Part shown: in pieces, positions 7,759 to 63,649 of the stretch
Position numbering within the stretch: position 1 is the stretch's first letter
Layout: the number at the start of each line of letters is the position of its first letter
Assembly (NCBI RefSeq): GCF_000242635.2
Contig: NC_017770.1
Coordinates: forward strand, 496,001-560,000
Origin: Solitalea canadensis DSM 3403
Lineage (GTDB): Bacteria; Bacteroidota; Bacteroidia; Sphingobacteriales; Sphingobacteriaceae
Reading direction: 5' to 3'
DNA: 64,000 nt
Translations under genes and position numbers: made by a program
The notes under the pieces: generated by a model
Told to the model about the DNA's origin: nothing
What the model saw: only the letters and a program-made list of their open reading frames with translations
The model's database searches: none

Positions 7759-9144
7759 ATGAAAAAATTATTAGGTCTTTCAATTTTAGTAGCCACAACC
7801 GCTTTAGTTAGTTGTAGCAAAAGTGATGATCCAACTCCAACTCCTCCAGTAAATACGGATACCAACATTCGTGGCGTTATCAGTAAAAACATTACCCTTA
7901 CTAAGGATAAAACTTGGACATTACGCGGTCCTATTTACGTAACTGCAGGTGCAACTGTTACAATTGAAGCAGGTACTAAGATCGTAAGTAAAAAAGACTC
8001 AGCAGGTATTCTTGTAATTACTCCTGGCTGTAAAATCAATGCAGCTGGTACATCTTCAGCTCCTATTGTATTCACTTCTGGTGAAACAAATCCTGCCCCT
8101 GGTGATTTCGGTGGTATCGTGATTTCAGGTAAAGCAACTGTTAATGGTAACCACAAAACTGTTGAAGGTGGTTTAGATCCTAAGTACTCAGCAATATGGG
8201 GAGCTACAGAAGCTACCAAATCACAAGCTAACGACGCAGATAACTCAGGTGTTATGCAATACGTTCGTATTGAGTATGCTGGTAAAGCTGTTTCTCCAGA
8301 CGTTGAGTTAAACGGTTTAAGTTTATATGGTGTAGGTAGCGGTACAACTTTTGACCATATTCAGGTTACAAGAGGTGTTGATGATGCTTTTGAATTCTTT
8401 GGTGGCACGTTCAATGCAAAATATCTTATCGCTTACGGTAACGGTGATGATGATTTCGATTTTGATGATGGTTTCCGTGGTAATTTACAGTATATCATCT
8501 CGATTAAAGATCCTAATGTAACTGATAACAAAGGAACTTCAGGTGACTATTCTAATAACATTGAGAGTGATAATACTGATGGTAAAACTGGTCCTTACAC
8601 AACTACTCCGGTTACAAAAGTTAATATTTCAAATGCAACTTTAGTTGGTCCTGGAAACACTCCAAACTCGCCAGTATGGAATAACTACGGTTACGGAAAT
8701 CGTTGGAGAAGAGGTTCAACCTTCAATGTTGCTAACTCAATTATTATTGGTGTTAAATTAAACGGTGTTTCTATTGAATCTAATGAAGCTGCTCAGTCAT
8801 TCAATGATGGTGGTAGTACCTTTAAGAATAATATCCTTCAAACTTTAGCAGCTGCTCCTTATCGTGTTGGATCTGATGTAACTACTGTTGCTGGATTTAA
8901 TCCGGCTAAAGTACAGGAACTTGCTTTGACAACTGTTTATGCAGCTTCAGCTGATGATGTTAAATTAACCGATCCATTCAACTTTGCTAAACCAAACGTT
9001 GCTCCTAAAGCTGATTCTCAAGCTTTAACAATGGGAACTAAGTTTGAAGGCGTTTTTGCAGCAGGATTTGATAAACCTAACTACGTAGGTGCTGTTTCAG
9101 CTGCAGCAGACTGGACTACCGGTTGGACAGCTTGGGGTAAATAA
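7759..9144 (+). CDS. Predicted surface lipoprotein, partner of the TonB receptor (copy 1)
   Basis: A 461-residue lipoprotein. The signal peptide ends in a lipobox (LVSC), and the mature start CSKSDD carries acidic residues resembling the Bacteroidota lipoprotein export signal, which suggests display on the cell surface. The body is rich in short G/N/D-punctuated beta strands, as in right-handed beta-helix folds (GATVTIEAGTKI, GDFGGIVISGKATV), and includes an aspartate-rich loop (NGDDDFDFDDGF) that could bind calcium. The C-terminus DWTTGWTAW recurs in the next gene, so the two are paralogues. It lies 82 bases after the receptor gene. Function is unknown. Confidence 0.8.
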   Translation: MKKLLGLSILVATTALVSCSKSDDPTPTPPVNTDTNIRGVISKNITLTKDKTWTLRGPIYVTAGATVTIEAGTKIVSKKDSAGILVITPGCKINAAGTSSAPIVFTSGETNPAPGDFGGIVISGKATVNGNHKTVEGGLDPKYSAIWGATEATKSQANDADNSGVMQYVRIEYAGKAVSPDVELNGLSLYGVGSGTTFDHIQVTRGVDDAFEFFGGTFNAKYLIAYGNGDDDFDFDDGFRGNLQYIISIKDPNVTDNKGTSGDYSNNIESDNTDGKTGPYTTTPVTKVNISNATLVGPGNTPNSPVWNNYGYGNRWRRGSTFNVANSIIIGVKLNGVSIESNEAAQSFNDGGSTFKNNILQTLAAAPYRVGSDVTTVAGFNPAKVQELALTTVYAASADDVKLTDPFNFAKPNVAPKADSQALTMGTKFEGVFAAGFDKPNYVGAVSAAADWTTGWTAWGK

Positions 9145-55117: not shown

Positions 55118-55270
55118 TGAGTATGAAAGGTTTTAGCATGTTTATTGAATTTCAAAACTAAAAGAAATCTCAGTTAATAATTAATAGCGTAGTTAGTTAA
55201 TTATCATTTTGCTCAAGTCCATCAACTTTGTTATATCGAAATCCAAATCAAAATTTATAAGTTTGTGCTA

Positions 55271-55654
55271 ATGAGAAAGGCATATTCAATATTGCTATTG
55301 TTTTTTTACTTGTTCAGCACTACAGAGCTGCATGAACTGGTGAAAATTCCTATTCTCGTTGAGCATTATTACCATCATAGTGCTGCTAATAACAATGAAT
55401 CATTGATAACCTTTATTAATGAGCATTATTTTTCAGGAGATATTCATGATGAAGATTACTCCCAGGATAAAAAGCTGCCGTTTAAGTCAAATGATAATTG
55501 TGTATTGGCAACAACATCAGTAGCAGTTAATCCCGAATTATTTACAATTGTAAAACCTGCAATTTTTTCTATCGAACGAAATTACAAGGTTGAAAAGAAT
55601 ATCCATTTTTCTTCTGACTACCTGTCATCTATCTGGCAACCACCCAAAGCTTAA
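55271..55654 (+). CDS. Small His-rich exported protein of the metal-efflux locus
   Basis: A 127-residue protein beginning at the ATG at 55271 (a GTG six bases upstream is also in frame). An N-terminal hydrophobic signal is followed by ELHELVKIPILVEHYYHH and a second cluster (INEHYFSGDIHDEDYSQD), histidine/acid-rich stretches that could bind metal. It ends IWQPPKA. Small proteins of this type commonly precede czcA in Bacteroidota; a metal-sensing or buffering role is inferred. The 150 bases to czcA contain no terminator. Confidence 0.72.
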   Translation: MRKAYSILLLFFYLFSTTELHELVKIPILVEHYYHHSAANNNESLITFINEHYFSGDIHDEDYSQDKKLPFKSNDNCVLATTSVAVNPELFTIVKPAIFSIERNYKVEKNIHFSSDYLSSIWQPPKA

Positions 55655-55805: not shown

Positions 55806-58800
55806 ATGCTTGATAAGATCATTTATTTCTCCATAAAGAATAAATTGGTCATTGGGTTGTTCACACTTGCTTTAATAGCCGTTGGTGTGTACTCATTAAC
55901 CCGTTTACCAATAGATGCAGTGCCTGATATTACAAATAACCAGGTACAAGTAATTACTTATGCACCCTCACAGTCGGCCCCAGATATTGAACGACTGGTT
56001 ACCTATCCCATTGAACAAACCATGGCAACGATACCCGGAATTGAAGAAGTGCGATCTTTTTCCCGTTTCGGTTTATCAGTTGTAACTGTGGTTTTTAAAG
56101 AAAACGTTGATGTGTATTGGGCACGTCAGCAAATTAGCGAAAGGTTAGGACTGGCCAAAGAGCTTATTCCTGATGGTGTTGGAACTCCGGAAATGGCACC
56201 GTTAACCACAGGACTGGGCGAAATCTATCAATATGCTATTCACCCTAAAAAGGGATATGAAGACAAATATGATGCTACGGAATTACGAACCATACAAGAT
56301 TGGATTGTAAAAAGGCAACTGCTAGGAACGCCTGGAGTAGCAGAAGTGAGCAGTTTTGGAGGAAATGTAAAGGAATATGAGATCGCTATTAATTCTGATA
56401 AGTTACGCAGTTTGAATGTGAGCATCGACGAACTGTTTACTGCCCTTAAAAAAAACAATCAGAATACAGGAGGAGCTTATATAGATCGAAAACCCAATGC
56501 TTATTTCATTCGTTCAGAGGGTTTGATCAATAACCTGGATGATATAGGCAAGATTGTGGTAAGAACTAACAGCAATGGAACACCTGTTTTGATTCGTGAT
56601 GTTGCTGAAGTAAAGTTCGGTTATGGCGCACGTTATGGAGCGATGACCTATAACGACAAAAACGAAGTGGTTGGAGCTGTAGTTATGATGCTTAAAGGAG
56701 AAAATTCCTCCAAAGTGATCAAAAATGTAAAAGAACGAATCACTCAAATCTCCAAAACACTACCCGAAGGGTTAGAAATAGAGCCGTTCTTAGATCGCAC
56801 CAAATTAGTGGATAAAGCAATAAACACAGTTTCAAAGAACCTGGCAGAAGGAGCACTGATTGTCATTTTTGTCTTGGTGTTATTATTAGGAAACCTGCGC
56901 GCAGGTTTGGTGGTTGCCTCTGTTATTCCTCTTGCTATGCTCTTCGCCATTACGCTAATGAACTTCTTTGGAGTATCAGGCAATCTCATGAGTTTAGGAG
57001 CTATTGATTTTGGATTGATTGTAGATGGAGCTGTGATTATTGTAGAAGCTACCATGCATCATCTTGGGTTACGTACTCTCGACCGAAGGTTAACCCAAGG
57101 CGAGATGGATAAAGAGGTGTTTGAATCTACCCGAAAAATCAGAAATAGTGCGGCTTTCGGAGAAATCATTATCCTGATCGTTTACCTACCTATTTTGGCG
57201 TTGGTGGGAGTGGAAGGTAAAATGTTTAAACCAATGGCGCAAACAGTTTCCTTTGCCATTTTGGGTGCATTTATCTTATCGCTTACCTATGTTCCGATGA
57301 TGAGCGCTTTATGTTTGAGTAAAAAGATAGAACATAAACGTACAATTGCAGATTGGATCATGGAGTTCTTCCACCGTATCTACAACCCGATTATCCGTTG
57401 GGCATTACATAAACGTGCATTCGTAATCATCACTGCAATAGTATTGTTTATCGGAAGCTTGTTTATGTTCAGCCGTTTAGGTGCTGAGTTTATTCCCTCA
57501 TTAGATGAAGGTGATTTTGCTGTGGAAACAAGGGTAATGACAGGTGGAAGTATTAGTCAAACCGTGGAAGTGGCTCAGAAATCAGCCAAGGTCCTTTTGG
57601 CAAATTATCCGGAGATAAAAGAAGTAGTAGGTAAAATTGGATCAAGTGAAATTCCTACAGATCCCATGCCTGTGGAGGCTTGTGACTTGATGGTTATTTT
57701 AAAGGATCGTTCTGAATGGACAAGCGCCGATTCTAAGGATGAACTTGCTGAGAAAATGCAAAAAACCTTGGAGGATAATATTCCGGGAGTAGCCTATGGT
57801 TTTCAGCAACCTATTCAAATGAGGTTTAATGAGCTGATGACAGGCGCCCGTCAGGATGTGGTGTTAAAAGTTTATGGAGAGGATCTGGATATGCTGGCCA
57901 GGTACGCCTCACAGATTGGGAAAGTAGCTGCAGGAACCGAAGGAGCGAAAGATCTTTATGTGGAAAAGGTCAGTGGTTTACCACAAATTGTAATTAATTA
58001 TAACCGTGATCGGATTGCCCAGTTCGGTTTAAGTATAGCAGAAGTTAATCAAGCAATTAACACAGCTTTCGCCGGACAGGCTGCAGGTTTTGTTTACGAA
58101 GGGGAAAAACGTTTTGCATTAACAGTACGATTAGCAAAACAAAGTCGCCAAAGCATTGAAGATGTTAAAAACTTGTATGTAAGCTCTTCGGATGGACGCC
58201 AGATCCCTCTGGAACAGGTGGCAGACGTAGAAATGCAGATCGGACCAAGTCAAATTCAACGTGACGATGCTAAACGCAGAATTATCGTCGGATTTAACGT
58301 TAGAGGCCGGGATGTGGAAAGTATTGTTAATGAGGTGAAAAGTAAAATTGAGAAGGATGTCAAATTTGCGCCCGGTTATTATGTAACCTACGGAGGTACA
58401 TTTAAAAACCTGGAAGAAGCACGTTTACGATTAAGTATCGCGGTTCCGGTGGCCTTATTACTTATTTTATTACTGTTGTTCTTTACATTCAAATCAATAA
58501 AACACAGTCTGCTTATTTTTACAGCCATTCCACTTTCTGCAATTGGGGGCGTGTTAGCGTTATGGTTGCGTGATATGCCATTCAGTATTTCGGCTGGGGT
58601 AGGGTTTATTGCATTATTTGGTGTGGCAGTACTTAACGGTATAGTATTGATCGCTGAGTTTAACCGGTTGAAGAAGGAAGGGTTAACTGATATTAAAGAA
58701 ATAATCTTCAGGGGGACAAGCACTCGCTTGCGTCCCGTAATCATGACAGCTGCGGTAGCTTCATTAGGTTTCTTGCCAATGGCTTTATCAGGGTCGGAAG

Positions 58801-60158
58801 GAGCAGAGGTTCAACGTCCGCTTGCAACTGTAGTTATTGGTGGTTTGATTACAGCTACCATTCTAACGCTGGTAGTGTTGCCTGTTTTATATATGTATTT
58901 TGAGAAAATTAAGATCAGAACAACAGCCAATGTTATTGGTGGATTGGTTGGTTTGTTATTTCTTATCCCAACCAAAACAAATGCACAACAACTTTCATTG
59001 GATTCGGCGATTAAAGTAGCAATTGAACGTAACCATGTAATTAAAACCGCTTCATTGGGAATTGATCAGCAGAAACGATTAAAAGGAACTTCAATTGATC
59101 TCCCTAAAACGGAGGTATCCTTAATGGCCGGACAGTATAATGGTCCAAGTAAACAGGATAAGAATATTACCATTTCTCAATCACTTCCGTTTCCGACTGT
59201 GTTTTCAGCAAATGCGGCATTAGCCAACGAAACGATCAAAAGCGCGGAATTTAAAAAAACGGTGTCAATTAATGATCTTACCTTACAGGTAAAGCAAACT
59301 TATTATACACTTCAGTATTTGCTAGATACAAAGTTGTTGTTTATACAGCAAGATAGTTTATATGCCCAATTTTTGAGGGCTTCGGACCTTCGATATAAAA
59401 CAGGAGAAAGTACATTATTGGAAAAATCGGCAGCCGAAACGCAGCGAAATGAAATCCATAATCAGTTGCGCATAAATGAAGCTGATATCGATATTGAACT
59501 TAATAAATTTAATGTATTATTGAATGGGGCCGGTTATTCAGTGGTGCATGTTCCGGCTAAAGAACGGGTTTATGGATTTACTGAACAAAGTGCTGCAATT
59601 ACCTATAACCCTAACTTGTCGTACTTTAAACAACAAGTGAACATAGCCGGACAACAAAAACGGGTTGAGCAAAACCGCATGCTTCCGGATTTAACACTTG
59701 GATATTTTAATCAATCATTAATTGGTTATCATGATGTAAATGGTCAGGCTCAATATTTTGGCGCTTCAGATCGTTTTCAGGGATTCCAGGTTGGAGTTGC
59801 CATTCCATTATGGTTTAAATCTCAATCATCAAAAATCAAAGCTGCAGATATTCAGAAGCAAATAGCTCAAAATGAATTTGAATTGGCCGAGAAACAGCTG
59901 AGTGGTTCCTTCACCCAAAGTTATGCGCAGTATCAGAAAAACCTGAAAAGCATTGCTTATTATCGGGAGAGCGCTTTACCAAATGCGGAGCTAATCATTA
60001 AGCAGTCGCAGGAAGCCTATAGGTTAGGGGAAATTCCATATTCAGAATATTTATTGAACATGCGTCAAGCTTTATCGATCAAGGAATCCTATTTAAAGTC
60101 TTTATTAGAGTTAAATCAAAGTGTTATTATGCTTGAGTATCTCACCGGGAAAAATTAA
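55806..60158 (+). CDS. CzcA-type heavy-metal RND pump fused to a TolC-like outer-membrane factor
   Basis: A 1450-residue fusion. Residues 1 to about 1035 are a complete HME-RND pump with 12 expected membrane helices and the proton-relay region AIDFGLIVDGAVIIVEA in TM4. Next comes a short hydrophobic stretch ending KTNA/QQ (about 1042-1060), like a signal peptide, then a TolC/CzcC-type coiled-coil outer-membrane factor (about 1061-1450; LSLDSAIKVAIERNHVI, LRYKTGESTLLEKSAAETQ, LPDLTLGYFNQ). With the adaptor gene 49 bases downstream it makes a complete tripartite exporter, probably of Zn, Cd, Co or Cu/Ag. Similar fusions recur in Bacteroidota. Confidence 0.93.
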   Translation: MLDKIIYFSIKNKLVIGLFTLALIAVGVYSLTRLPIDAVPDITNNQVQVITYAPSQSAPDIERLVTYPIEQTMATIPGIEEVRSFSRFGLSVVTVVFKENVDVYWARQQISERLGLAKELIPDGVGTPEMAPLTTGLGEIYQYAIHPKKGYEDKYDATELRTIQDWIVKRQLLGTPGVAEVSSFGGNVKEYEIAINSDKLRSLNVSIDELFTALKKNNQNTGGAYIDRKPNAYFIRSEGLINNLDDIGKIVVRTNSNGTPVLIRDVAEVKFGYGARYGAMTYNDKNEVVGAVVMMLKGENSSKVIKNVKERITQISKTLPEGLEIEPFLDRTKLVDKAINTVSKNLAEGALIVIFVLVLLLGNLRAGLVVASVIPLAMLFAITLMNFFGVSGNLMSLGAIDFGLIVDGAVIIVEATMHHLGLRTLDRRLTQGEMDKEVFESTRKIRNSAAFGEIIILIVYLPILALVGVEGKMFKPMAQTVSFAILGAFILSLTYVPMMSALCLSKKIEHKRTIADWIMEFFHRIYNPIIRWALHKRAFVIITAIVLFIGSLFMFSRLGAEFIPSLDEGDFAVETRVMTGGSISQTVEVAQKSAKVLLANYPEIKEVVGKIGSSEIPTDPMPVEACDLMVILKDRSEWTSADSKDELAEKMQKTLEDNIPGVAYGFQQPIQMRFNELMTGARQDVVLKVYGEDLDMLARYASQIGKVAAGTEGAKDLYVEKVSGLPQIVINYNRDRIAQFGLSIAEVNQAINTAFAGQAAGFVYEGEKRFALTVRLAKQSRQSIEDVKNLYVSSSDGRQIPLEQVADVEMQIGPSQIQRDDAKRRIIVGFNVRGRDVESIVNEVKSKIEKDVKFAPGYYVTYGGTFKNLEEARLRLSIAVPVALLLILLLLFFTFKSIKHSLLIFTAIPLSAIGGVLALWLRDMPFSISAGVGFIALFGVAVLNGIVLIAEFNRLKKEGLTDIKEIIFRGTSTRLRPVIMTAAVASLGFLPMALSGSEGAEVQRPLATVVIGGLITATILTLVVLPVLYMYFEKIKIRTTANVIGGLVGLLFLIPTKTNAQQLSLDSAIKVAIERNHVIKTASLGIDQQKRLKGTSIDLPKTEVSLMAGQYNGPSKQDKNITISQSLPFPTVFSANAALANETIKSAEFKKTVSINDLTLQVKQTYYTLQYLLDTKLLFIQQDSLYAQFLRASDLRYKTGESTLLEKSAAETQRNEIHNQLRINEADIDIELNKFNVLLNGAGYSVVHVPAKERVYGFTEQSAAITYNPNLSYFKQQVNIAGQQKRVEQNRMLPDLTLGYFNQSLIGYHDVNGQAQYFGASDRFQGFQVGVAIPLWFKSQSSKIKAADIQKQIAQNEFELAEKQLSGSFTQSYAQYQKNLKSIAYYRESALPNAELIIKQSQEAYRLGEIPYSEYLLNMRQALSIKESYLKSLLELNQSVIMLEYLTGKN

Positions 60159-60207: not shown

Positions 60208-61407
60208 ATGAAACGTAATTATTTATATATAACGATCTTAATGGTGCTTGTTTCCTTATCGGGCTGTGGGAGCAAAGCAAATAAACCTGACGCCGAAACG
60301 AAAACTGAAGAAGGTACGCAGGCTGAGCACGGACATGAGACTGAGGTCGAGTTTACAGCATTGCAATATAAGGCTGCCGGCATTCAATTGGGCACAATTG
60401 AAGAACGTGAGTTAGGATTAACAATTAAAGCAAATGGAGTTTTAGATGTTCCTCCTCAAAATCTTGTAAGTATTTCTGTTCCATTCGGAGGATTCCTCCG
60501 TTCTACAGATCTGTTGCAAGGAACTCGTGTTAAAAAAGGACAATTGATTGCAACGATCCAAAATCCGGACTATATCCAATTTCAACAAGATTACCTGGAG
60601 TCCAAGAGCCAGCTTGAGTTTTTAGAAGCCGAATATAAACGACAAGAGGAATTGGCAGCGGCTAATATTAATGCAAAAAAGACCCTTCAGAAAGCTAAAG
60701 CAGAGTATTTGTCGGCACGTGCACGAGTACAAGGATTAAAAGCTAGATTGCAGTTGATAAATATAAATCCATCGTCAATTGAAAATGGAAACTTTAAGAG
60801 TACCGTTTCTGTTTATTCTCCAATAACGGGTTATGTTACAGCTGTAAATGTAAATGTGGGTTCTTTCGTTAATCCGACGGATGTACTTTTTAAGATTGTT
60901 GATACCGAACATTTGCATGCTGAACTAACTATTTATGAGAAAGATATGCCTAAACTGAAAATAGGTCAAAAGGTGCGGGTTTATCTTTCGAATGATAAAA
61001 AGGAACGGGTCGCTAAGGTCCATTTAATAGGTAGAGAGGTGAGTAATGATCGAACAATAACCGTACATTGTCATTTAGATGAAGAAGACATTTCTTTGAT
61101 ACCAGGTACTTTTTTAAGTGGTATTGTTGAAACGGGAGCCTCAAAAGTCGCTTCGTTGCCGGATGAAGCTATTGTGCAAAATGGTGAAAGTAAAGTGATC
61201 TTTGTTTCAGAAGGGTCAAGGAAAGAAGGAAATGAAGTAGTTCAATTGTTTAAGGCCGTTGAAGTAACAACTGGAGTTTCTGATGGTGGTTTTACAGAGA
61301 TAATAGTACCGGAGGGTATGAATAAAAAGGCTTCAGTAGTGCTTAAAGGAGCATTTGATATTTTATCTAAAATGAATAGCGGCGAAGAAGCCGGACATGC
61401 CCATTAA
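60208..61407 (+). CDS. RND periplasmic adaptor (CzcB/CusB type)
   Basis: A 399-residue membrane-fusion lipoprotein linking the pump and channel. Lipobox LSGC; no acidic export motif after it, consistent with staying in the periplasm. Domains are the lipoyl/barrel-sandwich (VSISVPFGGFLRSTDLLQGTRVKKGQLIATIQ and VYSPITGYVTAVNVNVGSFV), a helical hairpin of coiled coil (about 130-190), a beta-barrel and a membrane-proximal end. The N-terminus (AEHGHETEVE) and C-terminus (AGHAH) carry histidines that may bind metal. It is in the czc operon. Confidence 0.93.
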   Translation: MKRNYLYITILMVLVSLSGCGSKANKPDAETKTEEGTQAEHGHETEVEFTALQYKAAGIQLGTIEERELGLTIKANGVLDVPPQNLVSISVPFGGFLRSTDLLQGTRVKKGQLIATIQNPDYIQFQQDYLESKSQLEFLEAEYKRQEELAAANINAKKTLQKAKAEYLSARARVQGLKARLQLININPSSIENGNFKSTVSVYSPITGYVTAVNVNVGSFVNPTDVLFKIVDTEHLHAELTIYEKDMPKLKIGQKVRVYLSNDKKERVAKVHLIGREVSNDRTITVHCHLDEEDISLIPGTFLSGIVETGASKVASLPDEAIVQNGESKVIFVSEGSRKEGNEVVQLFKAVEVTTGVSDGGFTEIIVPEGMNKKASVVLKGAFDILSKMNSGEEAGHAH

Positions 61408-61675: not shown

Positions 61676-63649
61676 ATGCGTCATCCATATTTTCATCAAG
61701 GAGGTCATGATGATTGTTGTAGTATAGAACACAATCATGTTAAAGAAACAACCAAACAGGTTCAGGATACTTCCTTAACATCGCCCTATAAAGAATATAT
61801 ACCTTCTATTATCAGTTTTGTGCTGTTAATGATAGGTTTATCCTTAGATCATTTTGTAAAGCCTGATTTTTTTAAAAGTTATGTCAGACTTACCTGGTAT
61901 CTGATCGCATATCTACCAGTAGCATGGTCGGTTATTCTCACTGGTTTGAAATTGATCAGAAAAGGAGAGGTATTTACCGAATTCTTTTTAATGACTGTAG
62001 CCACATTAGGTGCATTTTATATTGGAGAGTATCCGGAAGGAGTAGCTGTAATGCTCTTTTATTCGGTTGGAGAGTTGTTTCAGGGAGCGGCTGTTAAAAG
62101 AGCAAAGGGTAATATTAAAGCATTGCTTGATGTTCGTCCCGATTCGGCTACGGTAATAAGAAATGATGTAGCCACTATCGTACATCCTGAAAAAGTGGGA
62201 GTCGGAGAGATCATTAGTTTAAAACCGGGAGAAAAAGTGCCATTGGATGGAACTATTATCGATGGATATAGTTCTTTTAACACAGCTGCACTAACCGGTG
62301 AAAGTAAACCTAAAACAATAAGAGCCGCAGAAACAGTGCTTGCCGGTATGATCAATATTGATCGTGCAGTAATGGTTCGGGTAACCAAAAAATTTACTGA
62401 AAGTTCATTGGCGCGTATACTAGATATGGTGCAAAATGCATCAGCACGTAAAGCTCAAACAGAGCTATTTATCCGGAAGTTTGCCAAAATTTATACGCCA
62501 ATTGTGGTTTACCTGGCTTTAGCGGTAATTTTCCTCCCTTATTTTTTTGTGAGCGATTACGTATTCAATGATTGGTTATATAGAGGATTGATTTTTTTGG
62601 TGATTTCTTGTCCATGTGCGTTGGTAATTTCGATTCCTCTAGGCTATTTCGGCGGAATTGGTGCTGCCTCACGTAATGGTATCCTGTTTAAGGGATCAAA
62701 TTATCTGGATCAGGTAACTAAGCTAACCACCGTTGTGATGGATAAAACCGGAACACTTACAAAAGGTGTTTTCAATGTGCAGGAAGTAATTTCAGCTAAT
62801 GGAGATAAACAGAAACTCATCAACTATGCAGCTGCACTTGAAAGTCATTCGACACACCCGGCAGCCAAAGCCATTATTTCCTATGCAAATGGAAGCGTAC
62901 AATCAGCATCGCTCAAGGCAATGAATGTACAAGAAATAGCGGGCCATGGTCTAAAGGGGGAGGTGAATGGTAGTGTGGTATTGGCCGGAAATGCAAAACT
63001 ATTAGCCAAACATGCAATTGCATATCCGAAAGAATTGGATGCGGTAGTGGACACTGTGGTGGCGGTAGCTATCGATGGAAACTACGCTGGTTACTTTACC
63101 ATTGCAGATGAACTAAAAGAAGATGCGCAACAAGCAGTGAAAGATTTGCATAATGCAGGTGTAAAGGAATTAGTAATGCTTTCGGGAGATAAGAGCAGTG
63201 TGGTACAAAAAGTTATTAAAACATTAGGTATTGAAAAGGGCTTTGGTGACTTGCTGCCTGAAGGAAAGGTTCAGAAAGTTGAAGAGATAAAAAGTGATCG
63301 GTCTAAAGTAGTCGCTTTTGTTGGCGACGGAATAAATGACGCTCCTGTACTTGCATTAAGCGACGTTGGTATCGCAATGGGAGGTTTAGGTAGCGGTGCG
63401 GCTATCGAAACTGCTGATGTGGTTATTCAAACGGATCATCCTTCAAAAATTGCTACTGCAATCAATATTGGGAAAGCTACACAACGTATCGTATGGCAAA
63501 ATATTGGTTTAGCGATGGGAATCAAAATCATTGTACTCATTTTGGGTGCAGGAGGTGTGGCAAGCATGTGGGAAGCCGTTTTTGCTGATGTTGGAGTGGC
63601 ATTGTTGGCTATATTGAATGCAATAAGAATACAAAGAATGAAGTTTTAA
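61676..63649 (+). CDS. Heavy-metal P1B-type ATPase (Zn/Cd/Co-like)
   Basis: A 657-residue ATP-driven metal exporter. Membrane helix 6 carries CPC (C312-P-C314 in ISCPCALVIS), the phosphorylation site is D356 in DKTGTLT, the actuator loop has TGES and the hinge is GDGINDAPVLALSDVGIAMG. An aspartate in the last helix (FADVGVALLAILNA) resembles the P1B-2 Zn/Cd/Pb group. The N-terminus has no HMA domain but a His/Cys tail (HQGGHDDCCSIEHNH). The ATG at 61676 is preceded by AAGGAG 12 bases upstream. It follows the czc operon across a repeat. Confidence 0.93.
   Translation: MRHPYFHQGGHDDCCSIEHNHVKETTKQVQDTSLTSPYKEYIPSIISFVLLMIGLSLDHFVKPDFFKSYVRLTWYLIAYLPVAWSVILTGLKLIRKGEVFTEFFLMTVATLGAFYIGEYPEGVAVMLFYSVGELFQGAAVKRAKGNIKALLDVRPDSATVIRNDVATIVHPEKVGVGEIISLKPGEKVPLDGTIIDGYSSFNTAALTGESKPKTIRAAETVLAGMINIDRAVMVRVTKKFTESSLARILDMVQNASARKAQTELFIRKFAKIYTPIVVYLALAVIFLPYFFVSDYVFNDWLYRGLIFLVISCPCALVISIPLGYFGGIGAASRNGILFKGSNYLDQVTKLTTVVMDKTGTLTKGVFNVQEVISANGDKQKLINYAAALESHSTHPAAKAIISYANGSVQSASLKAMNVQEIAGHGLKGEVNGSVVLAGNAKLLAKHAIAYPKELDAVVDTVVAVAIDGNYAGYFTIADELKEDAQQAVKDLHNAGVKELVMLSGDKSSVVQKVIKTLGIEKGFGDLLPEGKVQKVEEIKSDRSKVVAFVGDGINDAPVLALSDVGIAMGGLGSGAAIETADVVIQTDHPSKIATAINIGKATQRIVWQNIGLAMGIKIIVLILGAGGVASMWEAVFADVGVALLAILNAIRIQRMKF

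Follow-up and report, generated by a model that had tools for sequence, protein, structure and literature searches.

The stretch of DNA analysed here, referred to as the window, comprises 64,000 nucleotides of Solitalea canadensis DSM 3403 (contig NC_017770.1, positions 496,001 to 560,000), and at its positions 55806-60158 on the forward (+) strand lies a single gene in which a heavy-metal efflux pump of the resistance-nodulation-division (RND) type is followed, in the same reading frame, by a TolC-like outer-membrane factor (OMF). Very probably, this gene codes for a polyprotein with an internal signal peptide that is cut by signal peptidase I into a pump and an OMF. Among the relatives of the gene the residues of the cut site are conserved and the joint between the two halves is signal-like, and for these reasons the chain is very probably cut in two. 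A first-pass annotation of the sequence had left it undecided whether the protein is cut or the channel is tethered to the pump. The conservation of the motif strongly favours the cut, while the tether is geometrically implausible. The same annotation had expected a strict 1:1 ratio of pump and channel trimers. This is not supported, as the fusion provides for equal synthesis but the parts, once cut, need not stay 1:1.

The frame runs uninterrupted from ATG to stop over 1450 amino acids and contains no internal stops. Pfam ACR_tran spans residues 5-1032 (956 bits against a cut-off of 28), and NCBIfam TIGR00914, which covers the whole pump (residues 1-1034, 1200.7 bits against a cut-off of 701.45), identifies it as CusA/CzcA-type. 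The solved sequences nearest to the pump are ZneA (4k0e) and CusA (3k07/3t51), and its transmembrane helix 4 holds a DFGLIVDGAV stretch that we take to be linked to divalent metals. The remainder of the protein contains two Pfam OEP (PF02321) stretches (117 bits against a cut-off of 22, the best at 1262-1448) and falls below the curated cut-off of the type I secretion TolC family (TIGR01844, 38.7 against 225.15). The frame, Pfam and NCBIfam bear out the earlier claim that one frame encodes a CzcA pump and a TolC-like factor, and the position given for the joint (about residues 1042-1060) agrees with the residues read here. Searched alone against the sequences of solved structures, the OMF part gave zero matches at E<=0.01, and a solved structure extending over the joint was not found, the best stretches stopping by query residue 1040 (best 60 of 83 chains). 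An AlphaFold2 run on residues 1021-1450, with an alignment of 36 rows, gave ten-residue confidence means of 48-52 for residues 1021-1060 and of 71-98, mostly >=86, from residue 1061 on, so the confident fold begins at the predicted new N-terminus. Foldseek with the OMF model returned TolC, SilC, CusC (3pik) and OprM, with a probability of 1.00 to TolC, CusC and OprM.

The joint reads EKIKIRTTAN-VIGGLVGLLFLIP-TKTNA/QQ, the slash here and below marking the predicted cut. Residues E1033-N1042 are charged, V1043-P1055 are hydrophobic and TKTNA1060/Q1061Q follows, the peptide across the NAQQ joint being TNAQQLSLDSAIK. A positive n-region, an h-region and residues that obey the (-3,-1) rule are all present, as in substrates of Sec and signal peptidase I. 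Those substrates carry the signal at the N-terminus and the signal-like stretch of the window protein starts at residue 1033, which is why we describe it as an internal variant that works like a signal peptide.

The fusion is widespread. Residues 971-1450 were matched (E<=1e-30) in at least 128 of 395 genomes sampled across the phylum, a lower bound because no more than four candidates were scored per genome, and one in which a match is not always a fusion. From the listed matches 127 homologue loci were taken (27 loci, L030-L056, and 100 further stretches), some genomes giving more than one; two free OMFs (G146:C8 and G086:C3) were treated as split relatives and stand outside these loci. Listed frame lengths can run through stops, and the counts of fused frames rest only on frames that were translated directly. 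A stop-free frame leads from the twelfth transmembrane helix (TM12) through the joint into the OMF at 126 of the 127 loci, the exception (L153) having a TAA in the joint. Over their full length, 43 stretches picked as fused were translated; each of the 43 proved to be one frame from stop to stop, 1437-1537 amino acids long, with four of them extending to the limit of the stretch. Among named genomes, a scan from whose longer list the best 80 loci were kept gave 72 fusions with more than 350 amino acids after the TM12 motif. Outside these 72 scored fusions stand L363, also fused, whose pump-end motif was missed by the script; L356 and L399, fusions truncated where their contigs end; L347, whose pump is joined to a different cargo; and four loci with split genes (L378, L379, L391 and L404). 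Complete replicons are represented among the fused loci by a chromosome (L329) and a plasmid (L374), and the record names among the named loci include Flavobacterium, Chryseobacterium, Pedobacter, Chitinophaga, Hymenobacter and Dyadobacter. Among the matches listed for plasmid copies (15 of 3574), eight with 99-100% coverage are named only 'CusA/CzcA family heavy metal efflux RND transporter', a name that leaves the OMF half invisible and makes a one-piece function easy to assume. Split versions with a stop in the joint (L153/L245) or with overlapping genes (L188, L190) are known and might suggest that the fusion is an assembly or annotation artefact produced by a missed stop or a frameshift. 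The read-through counts in the homologues, complete replicons included, refute this reading and leave it with practically no probability.

The joints of these homologues were compared as a set of 127, made up of the 126 fused homologues and the window; the split L153 was left out of every joint count, and the eight joints without [AS]Q were left out of the identity, -3/-2 and charge-to-cut counts (n=119). The n-region is net positive in 125 of the 127 joints (117 of the 119 with [AS]Q), and the h-region is hydrophobic throughout, with a lowest mean Kyte-Doolittle value of 2.0. Pairwise identity over the 119 joints is 78% in 34 columns of TM12; the h-region reaches about 20%, and the residues flanking it on both sides about 10%. 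Small residues (A, V, S, T or G) occupy position -3 in 95/119 joints, -2 in 16/119 and -4 in 64/119, the background in the same stretch being 38.7%. Behind the hydrophobic core, 115 of the 127 joints carry the motif [AVSTGIL]x[AGS]Q, compared with 39 +- 5 (maximum 55) in 1000 shuffles; the motif occurs at only 9 of 464 other hydrophobic transmembrane segments of 44 pumps. In the second set it is present in 68 of the 72 scored fusions among the best 80 named loci (22.3 +- 3.8 in 500 shuffles, maximum 33). The small-residue cleavage motif that had been noticed at the window's joint is thereby conserved in its homologues. With positions -3 and -1 as the sole criteria for the site, under which one joint has none and was dropped, Q stood at +1 in 89 of 126 joints (71%) and at +4 in 21 of 126. 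PMC5837995 puts the mean share of Bacteroidetes signal peptidase I substrates with Q at +1 at 71%, the between-species SD being about 10 points. The frequency at the joints equals the mean of this Q-rule, an exact agreement that is partly luck because the phylum sampled here is wider than the group covered in that paper. The distance from the last charged residue to the cut has a median of 18 residues in the fusions (n=119) and of 17 in free OMFs with [AS]/Q (n=36); by script, the 85 free OMFs divide into 36 with an [AS]/Q site, 38 with a lipobox and 11 with neither. Judged from its residues, the joint looks like a normal signal peptide across the relatives, with a complete signal-peptide grammar.

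Several points weigh against this interpretation. In-vivo or mass-spectrometric evidence for cleavage was not found. Eight of the 127 joints lack [AS]Q; among the metal-pump fusions, L051 has a Cys at +1 (SAEA/C) that does not form a classical lipobox, and no [AS]Q, and the joints of L077 and L154 contain weak sites. Sites were scored with a simple rule, and [AS]Q or the +1 Q is itself part of the motif or the anchor in the motif, distance and identity counts; the +1-blind pick and the -3/-2 counts are free of that. The search query covered the pump end together with the OMF and was biased toward finding fusions, and the homologues are kin, so their counts are not numbers of independent events.

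The OMF could instead stay covalently tethered to the pump, with the joint as a thirteenth transmembrane helix that fixes a 1:1 pair. The single stop-free frame, a hydrophobic joint that could span the membrane, and a fusion that is widespread and, by the tree, old would all suit such an arrangement. Against it, the -3/-1 residues and the +1 Q are kept while the helix sequence varies, and the median of 18 residues from last charge to cut is like that of signal peptides. The split genes described below, with about nine reversions, also speak against a tether, as do the AcrB-type fusions, which keep a lipobox, since a lipidated OMF N-terminus is anchored in the outer membrane, as is the N-terminal Cys of OprM in the available parts of PMC4790312 and PMC13082787. 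A further objection is geometric. In reconstituted MexAB-OprM, as described in the accessible part of PMC4754349, the membranes lie about 23 nm apart, and the OMF extends 10 nm and the RND protein 7 nm into the periplasm without direct contact. Subtracting these distances places the OMF tip about 13 nm from the inner membrane and the OMF N-terminus farther still. The window's linker, from the h-region to the first OMF helix, has about 10 residues and reaches at most about 3.5 nm, and is therefore far too short to bridge the gap. Across homologues the median distance from +1 to the start of the first OMF helix is 6 residues (117 joints, crude pattern); the longest linkers, at up to 45 residues by the same crude pattern, favour the tether and make the geometric argument weaker in those species, which again tells against our interpretation. 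On the geometry, the conserved cut site over a variable helix and the signal-like length, we rejected a permanent tether, which we regard as highly unlikely.

The OMF might also, or mainly, arise by internal initiation at a Met near the joint, with the fused product as minor read-on or serving only to couple translation. Met is two-fold enriched in the n-region, just before the h-region (46 observed against 22.7 expected in 127 joints), a finding that does not favour cleavage; in places it appears as MK- right before the h-region, and the window has an ATG at Met1030, 30 residues ahead of the site. The excess is, however, equally expected from relics of former start codons. Met is absent from this stretch in 81 of the 127 joints, for which reason internal initiation was rejected as a general mechanism, and a Met at the window's position occurs in just 4 of the 127, the window counted. 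Moreover, internal initiation would still leave a fused chain to be processed. We consider it unlikely overall, as a rival that has room left in some species.

If the polyprotein is cut by signal peptidase I, its maturation can be outlined as follows. The pump would insert in the inner membrane and leave its C-terminus on the cytoplasmic side, as the general topology of RND proteins suggests for the end of TM12. On entering the translocon, residues 1033-1060 would act as an internal signal peptide; the OMF part would be threaded into the periplasm and signal peptidase I would cut after A1060. The pump would be left with a 28-residue signal-peptide stub as a thirteenth hydrophobic stretch, which may later be trimmed or kept. 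The free OMF of 390 amino acids, starting at Q1061, which presumably becomes pyroglutamate, would fold, trimerise, move to the outer membrane and rejoin the pump via the adaptor encoded next door. What the fusion would offer is equal, co-translational synthesis at one place, and no tether.

Split relatives occur inside the fused clade, and 10 of 12 have a downstream OMF gene with a signal-like N-terminus of its own (by eye). In L188, with a pump 73% identical, the pump stop overlaps the OMF start (ATGA); L190 (pump 68% identical) likewise has overlapping genes, L245 has a TAA within the joint, and L191, L192, L193, L194, L379, L391 and L404 are further cases. The two without a following OMF are L189, where the adaptor comes next, and L378, where another gene does. 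On a FastTree of 143 pumps the fused/split label takes 10 changes, which is most simply read as one old fusion and about nine reversions, although change counts alone cannot separate gain from loss. Such easy re-entry to a two-protein state is expected if two proteins are the working state anyway. In L347 (4938-8696), from one draft genome of a Cyclobacteriaceae bacterium, a like joint is followed by an unrelated domain of about 170 amino acids, and the OMF is encoded separately, by the following gene, which supplies a signal peptide of its own; this suggests that the internal signal can be re-used with different exported cargo. Between the split pump and OMF of L391 lies a small frame (8383-8748, LYKKAFDLAMQIFQLSKQF...), presumably of the four-helix-bundle type. 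One fused pump-OMF gene (L385, 5001-9338) is found in a record named Glaciecola amylolytica (Gammaproteobacteria) and falls in one clade of the pump tree with L214 and the Dyadobacter copy L368; it represents either a horizontal transfer or a mislabelled record.

Fusions are also found among AcrB-type RND pumps. In G002, from the window's family, such a pump is fused to an OMF (L247, 1521 amino acids), and 71 of 80 sampled genomes of the L247 genus match at E<=1e-100. With the lipobox pattern [LVIFMAT][ASTVIGLF][GAS]C, an internal lipobox is present in 32 of the 32 AcrB-type fusions read (L248, L249, L282, L298-L326), a count that was judged without a shuffle baseline and in which 31 of the 32 sequences come from one genus, so that it represents few independent events. 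The n- and h-regions of these joints vary in length and sequence, and in 31 of the 32 the OMF part contains no Cys besides that of the lipobox, the background Cys frequency in these proteins being 0.4%. Without a cut at this point it would be difficult to see why the mid-chain Cys is retained. Free OMFs of the AcrB-type class carry a lipobox in most of those examined (by eye). The OMF of L282, which comes from another family, is closest to the split L291 among the free OMFs at hand (54%) and 27% identical to L248, and thus looks like a separate fusion. Other AcrB-type relatives that were listed with long frames turned out to be split once translated. Cleavage of the AcrB-type polyprotein by signal peptidase II, with predicted lipidation, appears to be the best explanation of these sequences.

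The features of the window gene and its neighbours are collected in Table 1. Against the narrower TIGR00999 (CzcB/NccB) the adaptor falls below the cut-off (128.3 against 319.3). Pump, OMF and adaptor would form one tripartite exporter encoded in two frames; metals are its predicted substrates in view of the DFGLIVDGAV stretch and the adjacent Zn/Cd-type ATPase. The small frame upstream of the pump matches neither Pfam nor NCBIfam and perhaps codes for a metal-binding accessory protein; an IWQPPKA-like ending is also seen on frames upstream of the pump in L347, L379, L391, L404 and L363.

Table 1 Features of the pump-OMF gene and neighbouring frames in the window.
Feature	Coordinates	Strand	Basis
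Small frame upstream of the pump, predicted secreted or anchored, ends IWQPPKA	55265..55654	+	ORF list
RND pump part, CusA/CzcA-type heavy-metal efflux, residues 1-1032 (TM12 end ~1032)	55806..58901	+	ACR_tran, TIGR00914
n-region of putative internal signal peptide, residues 1033-1042 EKIKIRTTAN, net positive; probably on the cytoplasmic side	58902..58931	+	
h-region, residues 1043-1055 VIGGLVGLLFLIP	58932..58970	+	hydrophobicity
c-region TKTNA, residues 1056-1060; A1060 predicted as the last residue before the signal peptidase I cut	58971..58985	+	(-3,-1) rule in homologues, Q-rule at +1
Predicted mature OMF, residues 1061-1450 (390 aa); N-terminal Gln predicted cyclised to pyroglutamate	58986..60155	+	OEP, AlphaFold2, Foldseek
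Periplasmic adaptor (CzcB/CusB-like membrane fusion protein), third component of this tripartite exporter	60208..61407	+	HlyD_D23 (Pfam) and TIGR01730, both above cut-off
Zn/Cd-type P1B ATPase, a metal exporter next to the pump genes	61676..63649	+	TIGR01525, TIGR01512 over cut-off

The genome that contains the window consists of a single 5.2-Mb contig. It has 14 matches to ACR_tran, of which 12 score above the cut-off, two of these belonging to a single pump broken in half; OEP stretches number 33. Judged by listed frame lengths, the window pump is its only pump with an OMF in the same frame. Two signal peptidase I (Peptidase_S26) frames are present, and eight free OMFs of the genome show A/Q (by eye). 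A CzcA-like pump at G000:C1:3015763-3018874 is split over two adjacent frames (query residues 1-421 and 427-1034), reflecting either a broken gene or a sequence error, and an AcrB-type pump at G000:C1:4601460-4604552 has one in-frame TAG within the matched stretch.

The literature searched, a scope outside which most subscription journals lie, yielded no description of a pump-OMF fusion or of its processing. No such description was found in the parts examined of PMC8277102, PMC6281302, PMC11213822, PMC10434189 and PMC4446572, and the part examined of PMC4827864 deals with other fusions of outer-membrane pore proteins, not with a pump-OMF fusion. To our knowledge, and within that literature, three things are new here: how broad the evidence is, the agreement with the Q-rule, and the class of fusions with an internal lipobox. 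Pump-channel fusions are common in Bacteroidota, and we think it likely that efflux polyproteins arose in this phylum at least twice, in more than one RND subfamily, and that the general export machinery itself divides them, with signal peptidase I acting at A/Q in the metal pumps and signal peptidase II at an internal lipobox in the AcrB-type. If this is true, an acylated outer-membrane lipoprotein would originate within the chain of a polytopic inner-membrane protein. If the chain is cut, current models of tripartite pumps can stand; Sec and signal peptidase would have to accept a signal peptide that follows twelve transmembrane helices and, for the AcrB-type, the lipoprotein pathway would have to accept a mid-chain precursor. 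As the new N-terminus is predicted to the residue for each fusion, proteomes that already exist could decide the matter, and annotators gain a rule for dividing fused entries into two mature proteins.

In CusCBA and CzcCBA, pump and OMF are encoded by separate genes. The window's exporter resembles these systems of heavy-metal efflux RND (HME-RND) type in its pump subfamily (TIGR00914), in its OMF fold (CusC 3pik) and in the adaptor next door, but differs from them in having pump and OMF in one frame with a mid-chain signal peptide. A parallel in architecture is FbcH of Bradyrhizobium, a precursor of cytochrome b and cytochrome c1 that is cut by signal peptidase at an internal signal. By sequence, the window gene likewise combines a polytopic inner-membrane part, an internal signal and an exported part in one frame, and we think that its protein works like an internal-signal polyprotein such as FbcH, with cleavage predicted. 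The two differ in that both FbcH products stay in one inner-membrane complex, whereas the second product of the window gene must reach the outer membrane. With the Q-rule substrates, as far as the available part of PMC5837995 describes them, the window-type joints share an A/Q site and the same mean Q frequency, but the signal peptides there are N-terminal and that of the window is internal; the same part states that inner-membrane proteins remain to be tested for the Q-rule. Finally, the AcrB-type fusions resemble lipidated OMFs of the OprM/CusC type in that the lipobox directly precedes the OMF, as in free OMFs, and are unlike them in that this lipobox lies about 1000 residues into a polytopic membrane protein.

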